From Deltaproteobacteria bacterium (GTDB lineage Bacteria; Desulfobacterota; Desulfovibrionia; Desulfovibrionales; Desulfovibrionaceae): a stretch of 39,250 nt of DNA. The position numbers and the translations under genes were made by a program. The notes beneath the pieces were generated by a model. The model was not told the origin of the DNA and did no database searches. It saw nothing but the letters and a program-made list of their open reading frames with translations. This document shows positions 8,035 to 21,235 of this stretch, one piece after another. Positions within the stretch are counted from its first letter, which is position 1; the number at the start of each line of letters is the position of its first letter. The stretch is from assembly GCA_031264465.1 (NCBI GenBank), contig JAISDX010000003.1:1-39250 (forward strand), read 5' to 3'.

Positions 8035-8622
8035 ATGAATAAAGGACGCCTTATTTTTTGCAGCGGCGGTTGCCGCAGCGGCAAGAGCGCCCAAGCGCTC
8101 CGGCTGGCGGAAGGCTTGGCCGGCCGGGCGGACAACGCCCCGGCCGCCGGTCTGGTTTTCGTGGCCACCCTGGACGTGCGCGATGCGGAAATGCGCGCCC
8201 GGGTGGAGCGGCACCGGCTGGAGCGCGGCGCCGGGTGGCAGACCCTGGAAATACCCGTGGACAAGGCGCCGGACCTGGCGGCGCACCTGGACCGCGCCCT
8301 CAGGCTGGGGCGGGTGCTGGTGCTGGACTGCCTGAGCACCTGGGTTGGCGCCTGTCTGGAAAGTTTGCCCCAGCGCCCTCCCGGCGGTTGCCGGGAGCTG
8401 GAGGAAGCCATTCTGGCCCGGCTGGCCGAGGCGCTTGACCTCCTGGCGCAGGCCGGCGCCCGCTGCGTGCTGGTAAGCGCCGAAACCGGCCTGGGGCTCG
8501 TGCCGGAATCAAAAGATGGTCGCGCCTTTCGCGATGTCCTGGGCCGGGTCAATCAACTGGCGGCCGCCCGGGCGGACGAAGCCTGGTTCATGGTCAGCGG
8601 CCTGCCTTTGCGGCTGAAATAA
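8035..8622 (+). CDS. cobU: Adenosylcobinamide kinase / guanylyltransferase
   Basis: CobU/CobP, the bifunctional enzyme that phosphorylates adenosylcobinamide and transfers GMP to it in nucleotide-loop assembly of cobalamin. The P-loop GGCRSGKS is at residues 11-18. The His in VERHRLERGAGWQTLE (His60) aligns with the guanylylated histidine of CobU, and LDCLSTWVG is the conserved Walker B-like strand. Length 195 residues fits. AAGG lies 5-8 nt before the ATG. It is a lone cobalamin gene here, divergent from leuS, and no cobalamin riboswitch was seen upstream. Its TAA stop directly touches the MITE-like element at 8623. Confidence 0.92.
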   Translation: MNKGRLIFCSGGCRSGKSAQALRLAEGLAGRADNAPAAGLVFVATLDVRDAEMRARVERHRLERGAGWQTLEIPVDKAPDLAAHLDRALRLGRVLVLDCLSTWVGACLESLPQRPPGGCRELEEAILARLAEALDLLAQAGARCVLVSAETGLGLVPESKDGRAFRDVLGRVNQLAAARADEAWFMVSGLPLRLK

Positions 8623-8779
8623 GGGAAACGCGGCTTAATGGTCTTTTTGCTCCCTGGCCGCGTCAGGCTCCTCCCGAGCGAAGCTCATGTATGTCTTGAT
8701 ACAATTCGCTCCGCCCGGAATGCGGTTGCCGGAGCAGGGCTTGCCAGGAAACAAAAAGCCTCATTAAGCAGCGTTTCCC
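8623..8779. mobile_element. MITE-like element with 36-bp terminal inverted repeats
   Basis: The left end GGGAAACGCGGCTTAATG (8623-8640) is mirrored by the right end 8762-8779, whose complement reads GGGAAACGCTGCTTAATG (17 of 18 identical). Similarity continues inward through CTTTTTG and CCTGGC for about 36 bp. A second, inner inverted repeat GAGCGAA/TTCGCTC lies near the middle. The 157-bp unit has no coding capacity and could fold into one long hairpin, so it may also act as the cobU terminator. The 18-bp end recurs at 20274-20291. No convincing target duplication was seen. Confidence 0.6.
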
Positions 8780-8971
8780 AAGCTTTGTCCGGCCGGCGGC
8801 AGCCGTGAAAATAAGGTTGATTTTAACATATAATATATTAATTTTATTTATAATAAAAATAAAATTTAAAGTTGACTTTTTTTATATAATATATGAGAAA
8901 AAGTACGAATTAATTAGTAGTGTTTTGCGGAGCAGCCGTGCAAGCACCAATCGAAAATAACGAGGACAGAT
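8780..8971 (+). promoter_or_regulatory. AT-rich promoter/operator region of the Rrf2 gene
   Basis: The stretch 8818-8920 is almost pure A+T, in strong contrast to its surroundings. The 11-mer ATATAATATAT occurs twice, at 8828-8838 and 8884-8894, 56 bp apart. TTGACT (8872-8877) is present but too close to the following TATAAT (8885-8890) to pair with it. Rrf2 regulators commonly bind AT-rich palindromes in their own promoters, so autoregulation is a reasonable inference. Confidence 0.45.
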
Positions 8972-19169: not shown

Positions 19170-20273
19170 ATGCGCGGAGGACCTGTATTCCTTGGAGTCT
19201 ACGCCCAGGCCGCCGAGCTTGAGAGCGGCGGCGAGAAAAACGCGACCCGTTGGCATGTGTGGGGGCTGGCCGACGGCGGTTTCATGTTGCAGGAAGCTCC
19301 CGTTGAAGAGGCCGCCGGCCCGGGCGCGCCCGGCGGCAAAAGCGCAAAACAGCAGGGTGAGCCCCGGCGGCTTTCCCCGGACGAATTTTTTCTTGAGTAC
19401 CGCGTACTGGCCGCTTTTTCGCCGCAGAAAAAAGGCCGCAAGCCCAATCCCGCGGCTCCGGTGGTGGAAGATTACACCCGCGACGCCAAAATGGGCGATG
19501 CCGGGGCGGGCGAAGGCCCGGTAAACGACCCGCCCAAGCCTGGAGCGGGCGTAAAAAGGCCGGATGGCTACAACAACCTCTGGGCCCGCCGGGACGAACC
19601 GGCCGGCGCTCCGTTCAAGCCCGCCGGCATGCGCGGTGCGGCTGAAGTCCGCTCCTGGATGCCGCCGGAGGACGATTCCGGCCAGGGCCTGACCATAGTC
19701 AAGGGAAGATCCTCCATGCCGGAGGAAGCGCGGCCCCTGGCCCGGGATGTGCCGAAGCCGGAGGCGGAGCCGCCGTCCGAAGTCCGGCCGGCGGTGATCG
19801 ACCGGGCCGGCCGGAGCGACGTCCAGGCCCGCCTGGTGGAAACCCTGGACGAAGACGACGGGCCGGTGAAAATGCCGCGCGCCGAAATTGAGCGCATCGA
19901 GGAAGATTTCCGCACCGAATTTTCCCTGGCCCTGATTCGCCTTAAAGGCAAGCGGGACGAGGGTATCGCCGCCCTGGAAAAAATGGTTGCGCGCCCCGGC
20001 CCCTTTGCCGTGGAGCACAAGTTCATGTTCACGGACTGCGGCCTGGCTTTGCGCAAACGCAATTTTTACGCCCTGGCCAACAAGTACCACGAGCGGGCGC
20101 GCAAGCTTTCGCCAGACGACGAACATGTGCTTTTCAACCAGGCCAGGGTAATGTATGAATCCGGCAGGATTGACAAGGCCAGGGCCTGTTTGCAGCTTGC
20201 CCTGGACATGGTCCCGGCTTTCGGGGCGGCCAAGGATTTTTTGGCTTTTATTGACGGGCCGAATAAGAGATAA
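19170..20273 (+). CDS. TPR-repeat protein of unknown function
   Basis: 367 residues with no signal peptide. The first 230 residues are charged, Pro/Gly/Ala-rich and probably flexible. The last 120 residues form tetratricopeptide-like helices: FSLALIRLKGKRDEGIAALEKMV, HKFMFTDCGLALRKRNFYALANKYHERARKLSPDD (consensus TPR) and HVLFNQARVMYESGRIDKARACLQLALDMVPAF. It likely mediates protein contacts. A clear AGGAG precedes the ATG. It is followed by the AMIN-domain gene 14 nt later, so the two are likely co-transcribed and may act together at the cell envelope. Confidence 0.7.
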   Translation: MRGGPVFLGVYAQAAELESGGEKNATRWHVWGLADGGFMLQEAPVEEAAGPGAPGGKSAKQQGEPRRLSPDEFFLEYRVLAAFSPQKKGRKPNPAAPVVEDYTRDAKMGDAGAGEGPVNDPPKPGAGVKRPDGYNNLWARRDEPAGAPFKPAGMRGAAEVRSWMPPEDDSGQGLTIVKGRSSMPEEARPLARDVPKPEAEPPSEVRPAVIDRAGRSDVQARLVETLDEDDGPVKMPRAEIERIEEDFRTEFSLALIRLKGKRDEGIAALEKMVARPGPFAVEHKFMFTDCGLALRKRNFYALANKYHERARKLSPDDEHVLFNQARVMYESGRIDKARACLQLALDMVPAFGAAKDFLAFIDGPNKR

Positions 20274-20291
20274 GGAAACGCTGCTTAATGA
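20274..20291 (+). repeat. Isolated 18-bp end of the MITE-like element
   Basis: GGAAACGCTGCTTAATGA is identical to the complement of the right end of the 8623-8779 element. Like that element's left end, it begins directly after a TAA stop codon. Its last ATG is the start codon of the AMIN gene, and its AGGAAA is the only ribosome-site-like sequence there. Confidence 0.6.
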
Positions 20292-21115: not shown

Positions 21116-21121
21116 AAAATC

Positions 21122-21220
21122 ATCGCTGGGGGAGTCCGCCCACGCCAACAGACGGACTGAGAGTGGCACATCGCCAGACCCCTTGAACCTGAAGCAGTTG
21201 ATACTGCCGTAGGAAAGCAT
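21122..21220 (+). promoter_or_regulatory. TPP riboswitch (THI box)
   Basis: The conserved core is clear: GGGGGAGTCC, the paired GGACTGAGAG (helix AGTCC/GGACT), ACCCCTTGAACCTGA, and the terminal ACTGCCGTAGGAAAGCA. GGGG at the start pairs with CCCC of the ACCCCTTGAACC box. It senses thiamin pyrophosphate and controls the six thi genes that follow through the adjacent terminator. Confidence 0.95.
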
Positions 21221-21235
21221 GAATCCGGCCCTGAT

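Follow-up and report, generated by a model that had tools for sequence, protein, structure and literature searches.

What is the 157-bp non-coding fold-back unit that starts on the base after the cobU TAA, at positions 8623-8779 of the window (the whole 39,250-nucleotide stretch of Desulfovibrionaceae DNA analysed here), and why do related units adjoin stop codons in a fixed orientation? A preliminary description had suggested that this may be a small mobile element with 36-bp imperfect terminal inverted repeats, an inner inverted repeat and no coding capacity, glued to the cobU stop, and that it may in addition terminate or stabilize transcripts. Its coordinates hold, and the locus is divided as follows.

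8035-8622, plus strand: cobU (PF02283 match), whose stop codon TAA (8620-8622) adjoins the element
8620-8623, plus strand: left target-site copy TAAG (YTAR-like), which holds the cobU stop TAA
8623-8779, no strand assigned: whole copy of the putative MITE as first named, opening with GGGAAACGC and closing with GCGTTTCCC
8624-8639, plus strand: left terminal inverted repeat GGAAACGCGGCTTAAT, the first 11 nt of which equal the IS5-family IS end at G000:C68 save one base
8640-8653, plus strand: inner left arm, T-tract GGTCTTTTTGCTCC
8654-8737, minus strand: conserved core, a predicted hairpin in which the minus strand is the structured one (65.2 bits and E = 1.2e-13 with the covariance model)
8738-8762, plus strand: inner right arm, complementary A-tract, with about 10 extra bases (GGTTGCCGGAGCAGGGC region) in the 157-bp class of copies relative to the 147-bp class
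8763-8778, minus strand: right terminal inverted repeat, outside-in GGAAACGCTGCTTAAT
8779-8782, plus strand: right target-site copy CAAG

With a 4-bp target duplication taken into account, the element itself spans 8624-8778 (GGAAAC...GTTTCC) and is flanked by TAAG and CAAG, which are identical in three of four letters. Pairing between the arms extends over some 36 nt at 86% identity, and the fold of the unit surpasses those of shuffled sequences (z = -5.9 on the plus strand and -9.5 on the minus strand; 0/200 shuffles as good). No ORF of at least 60 aa lies within 8623-8779 on either strand. A small protein was considered and rejected: a short plus-strand ORF from the arm ATG crosses some copies, but indels between copies break its frame. 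Elsewhere in the window, a lone 17-nt arm of the MITE without the core (20273-20289) carries an ATG at which the next ORF may start, and a TPP riboswitch (RF00059, 64.4 bits) occupies 21118-21232 on the plus strand.

Does the unit behave as a mobile element? Its own 2.27-Mb genome contains 42 matches to it at E<=0.001; as with IS5-family MITEs, many non-coding copies bounded by terminal inverted repeats are scattered across it. These copies fall into two size classes, of 157 bp and about 147 bp, and are accompanied by palindromes that lack the core (28-38 bp and about 77 bp) and by lone 17-nt arms (151 arm matches versus 1 for a reversed-pattern control). A single-copy ordinary terminator, named in the preliminary description as the alternative to a mobile element, is ruled out by the 42 copies and by the lack of a terminator-type T-run after the window hairpin. 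The idea that the core was inserted into pre-existing terminator palindromes was likewise rejected for this genome, in which the outer arms form one family with target duplications.

Target duplications were sought with the element taken as GGAAAC...GTTTCC and four flanking bases on each side (27 own-genome copies). YTAR, a known IS5 target (PMC10359306), is the consensus on both flanks, and the two flanks of a copy agree in 72 of 108 letters, compared with 54 expected from shuffling (p = 0.00025). Many copies are imperfect, and only 5/27 carry perfect duplications (TTAG/TTAG, CAAG/CAAG, TTAA/TTAA, TTAT/TTAT and CCAG/CCAG). A 2-bp TA duplication gave a weak result in a first test (p = 0.036), and the 4-bp YTAR is the better fit. 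Since YTAR contains TAA and TAG, insertion at this target would place copies next to stop codons. In the congeners G002 and G003, the cobU stop lacks any element; as these are different species, this constitutes absence of the element and not a strict empty allele.

Which transposase could have moved the unit? DDE_Tnp_1 has a single match in the genome, a 3' portion of an IS5-family transposase gene truncated by a contig end (NF033581, E = 9.5e-15), and the IS end downstream of its stop codon reads, outside-in, CTAG followed by GGAAACGCTGAACAAT. The MITE and this IS share the GGAAACGCTGA end and the CTAG target; their ends agree over approximately the 11 outermost nt, beyond which the match is loose. 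A candidate for the transposase with the same ends, which the preliminary description proposed to look for, is found in part: one end and the target match, but the gene is cut by the contig end, the other IS end is not seen, and the genome yielded no partner IS in complete form. In other genomes, CTAG, TTAG, CTAA or TTAA precedes GGAAAYGCTG at the ends of homologous ISs (CTAG followed by GGAAATGCTGAATAAT, TTAG by GGAAACGCTGAATAAT, TTAA by GGAAATGCTGAATAAT and CTAA by GGAAACGCTGCTTTAG), and at locus L292 of G163 inverted ends stand 985 bp apart between CTCA flanks. The DUF772 transposase of G168 was rejected as a partner because it has no matching ends. A separate IS5-type IS of about 830 bp (DUF4096) lies in G014 (L136, about 1087-1914), and its ends, GGGCCTGTTAACACTA, resemble those of an element of G104 in L259. 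The copy number, the target duplications, the element-free congeners and the IS whose one visible end and target match those of the MITE support the identification of the unit as a probable IS5-family MITE, ordinary as a mobile element, and the preliminary description stands in this respect.

The ordinary character does not extend to the interior. In relatives, it is this part of about 85 nt, and not the ends, that is conserved. In an independent MAFFT alignment (A2) of 21 cores, read on the minus strand of the window, 98.2% of cells are paired across 24 pairs, 9 pairs display two-sided changes, and no shuffle reaches the observed values. In a larger alignment of 74 distinct sequences, which was fitted to the covariance model and thus leans towards it, two-sided changes occur in 20 of the 24 pairs, 94.7% of cells are paired versus 28-54% when the alignment is slid, and the observed covariation is reached by 0/500 shuffles. 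Two-sided compensatory changes thus exceed the controls, as expected of a structured RNA. The structure has a preferred strand: G.U cells outnumber A.C cells on the minus strand by 185 to 25 (36 to 17 without four G.U-rich columns, by subtraction from the same table), and the minus-strand fold is better in all 29 own-genome copies tested. Diverse family members fold to one layout, which the minimum-energy fold of the window copy displays less cleanly. Loops of 2x2 type, in which each strand reads GA, interrupt the core helix; GA/GA occurs at three positions in 44, 43 and 55 of the 74 sequences, and the pairs that close these loops covary themselves (beside the apical loop, C-G in 49 and G-C in 20). 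We infer that the GA/GA loops would form sheared tandem G.A pairs. A sub-family in G168 (L202-L205) carries an extra hairpin (GCCCTG TTCGAAG CAGGGC) in place of part of the basal G.A loop, in a three-way-junction-like arrangement. The core has no Rfam match at or above the gathering score or at relaxed thresholds, and a search of viral contigs with the core pattern returned no match.

Could such a hairpin be a by-product of the inverted repeats? Quasi-palindrome correction, in which one arm serves as the template for the other, can yield two-sided changes. A plain IS5-family MITE in which such template switching keeps the arms complementary, with a core that is shared by way of recombination and horizontal transfer, would account for the mobility evidence completely, and no RNA function would be needed. 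Arm correction, however, should erase the GA/GA mismatches, which are persistent, and should not favor G.U over A.C on one strand; furthermore, the core persists across genera in which the ends do not. We thus regard a by-product as improbable. On the sequence comparisons, the interior is a conserved, predicted one-strand hairpin and not a decayed transposon.

The exchange of ends is seen in the distribution of the core, which was detected in 54 of 288 Desulfovibrionaceae genomes from 20 genera. Its carriers include the cultured D. cuneatus DSM 11391 and several uncultured or gut Desulfovibrio, the gut habitat being presumed by us from isolate names. YTAR-type ends around the core occur as several sets: GGAARYGCTGATTAAT in the genome of the window, G092 and G168; GGRGCTGTTTCTAAAT in G092 and G104; GAAGCTGTCTCAAAAT and GGGGCTGTCTCCAAAT in G014; and GGGAACCTCTACAAAC in G180, with flanks that include CTAG/CTAG, TTAA/TTAA and TAAT/TAAT. 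A second class of ends, GGTATTGGCTCACTTTG or GGTAGTGCCTCAATTTG, encloses the core with 8-bp duplications (TTGTCGGG twice and TGACCGTG twice), and both classes are present in G005. These sets show that one predicted core sits in MITEs with different, exchangeable ends, including the unrelated set with 8-bp duplications. Longer copies of 234-340 bp in G092 (L236, L248 and L254) keep the same ends and the core but also contain another repeat, inserted internally.

How are the copies placed relative to genes? In a count of six-frame ORFs of at least 80 codons (not annotated genes) whose stop adjoins the element, and among copies that are not fully independent, the stop lies only 3' of the structured strand in 16 cases versus only 5' in 1 in the own genome (p = 0.0003) and in 38 versus 7 in other genomes (p = 3e-6). 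With the stop on this side, the mRNA of the adjoining gene reads the opposite strand; the structured strand is therefore antisense to that gene, and a simple role as a 3'-UTR stabilizer does not fit. Three different long hairpins start from the TAG of one orthologous gene in G092, G104 and G143/G144 and share one orientation; several relatives have no element at this stop codon. The G104 and G143/G144 elements fall below the covariance-model threshold (fold z = -6.0 and -9.2) and were assigned to the family by eye from their fold and motif layout. Apparently, this stop codon received three candidate members in separate insertion events, each with the same orientation. The site after the same stop codon is filled in G110 (L262) by an unrelated palindrome (AGAGCGGTTTGCTAATGAAATTAGCTAAACCGCTCT). 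In G304 (L159, 1501-1581), a core copy stands in sense between the 16S rRNA and tRNA-Ile genes and is thus probably transcribed, which favors the RNA reading indirectly; this genome has three core matches of equal score, perhaps one per rRNA operon. The covarying minus-strand hairpin interior, common to MITEs with unrelated ends, and the oriented copies at stop codons were both missed in the preliminary description.

The fixed orientation admits two further explanations. The strand that the adjoining gene reads could be a Rho-loading or termination site, and the orientation would then be maintained since termination would occur on that strand alone. Family-wide, YC dinucleotides per 78 nt are indeed more numerous on the plus strand than on the minus strand (14.6 versus 6.3), but C equals G in the window's own core (0.306 each), which makes the argument weak for this genome, and selection keeps the other strand folded; we consider a Rho site very unlikely. 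Alternatively, the core could function in the form of single-stranded DNA, perhaps being recognized by a hairpin-binding mobility or replication enzyme, as in REP/RAYT or IS200/IS605 systems. One-strand structure and fixed orientation would be expected there too, and GTAG REPs often provide stop codons, specifically a TAG at their termini, according to PMC3733652. However, inverted ends with duplications of 4 or 8 bp are indicative of DDE transposition. No Y1 gene is matched in G250, and elsewhere the core is found at 1 of 20 Y1 loci, on which grounds identity with RAYT/REP elements was rejected. Action as single-stranded DNA thus seems doubtful, and RNA is the form on which we infer selection to act.

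We therefore favor, with a probability of roughly 0.6, the view that the unit is an IS5-family MITE that inserts at YTAR and carries a selected minus-strand hairpin that would act at the transcript level as RNA. An IS5-type transposase presumably mobilizes the non-autonomous MITE in trans via its GGAARYGCTGAWTAAT-like ends, and insertion at YTAR would duplicate 4 bp, with stop codons as frequent and harmless targets. The interior would be the selected hairpin, folded as the minus strand with helices broken by the 2x2 GA loops. This module may be active when it is transcribed (or single-stranded), and a host factor probably binds or processes it. The structured RNA would, in the reading we favor, make insertions at gene ends tolerable or even useful, and this would account for the single orientation of copies that adjoin a stop codon, in which the structured strand is antisense to the ending gene.

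A bolder generalization, which we offer tentatively, is that Desulfovibrionaceae possess a structured RNA module, with helices broken up by tandem G.A loops, that would spread as cargo of MITEs belonging to two or more unrelated DDE transposase families. Inserted at stop codons with a fixed orientation, it would act on the transcripts there, and it could be viewed as a bacterial counterpart of SINE RNAs that recruits different transposases. Bacterial MITEs are usually seen as transposon debris in which the ends matter and the interior does not. Here, the reverse applies: it is the interior that is conserved, between ends that can be exchanged, and this suggests that the cargo is a structured module under selection. 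The family offers a concrete test of whether MITEs persist through hairpin action at gene ends, with the orientation bias as a measurable prediction, and adds an undescribed structured element to many genomes of the Desulfovibrio family, including that of the cultured D. cuneatus. Within the part of the literature covered, we found no description of a covarying, end-exchanging core family, and word searches of one stem-loop survey and two REP surveys returned no mention of Desulfovibrio.

How does the element compare with known systems? Like REP/REPIN sequences with RAYT, it is a palindrome downstream of genes, and a REP terminus can supply the stop codon (PMC3733652); unlike them, it has target duplications, inverted ends, a much longer hairpin and no consistent Y1 partner. 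Correia (NEMIS) and ERIC elements, too, are short, fold back on themselves and lie close to genes. RNase III cleaves transcripts that contain Correia units, and an ERIC unit at a 3' end changes mRNA decay (reviewed in PMC10969869); the present module may affect transcripts somewhat similarly. No relation in sequence is apparent, and the present element differs in its 4-bp or 8-bp duplications and in a core with regular G.A loops. With IS5-family MITEs, the unit shares its short length, non-coding nature, inverted ends, 4-bp YTAR-type duplication and a matching IS5-family IS end in the genome. It departs from them in its interior, in which no IS-derived sequence is seen and which appears instead as a covarying hairpin common to MITEs with other ends.
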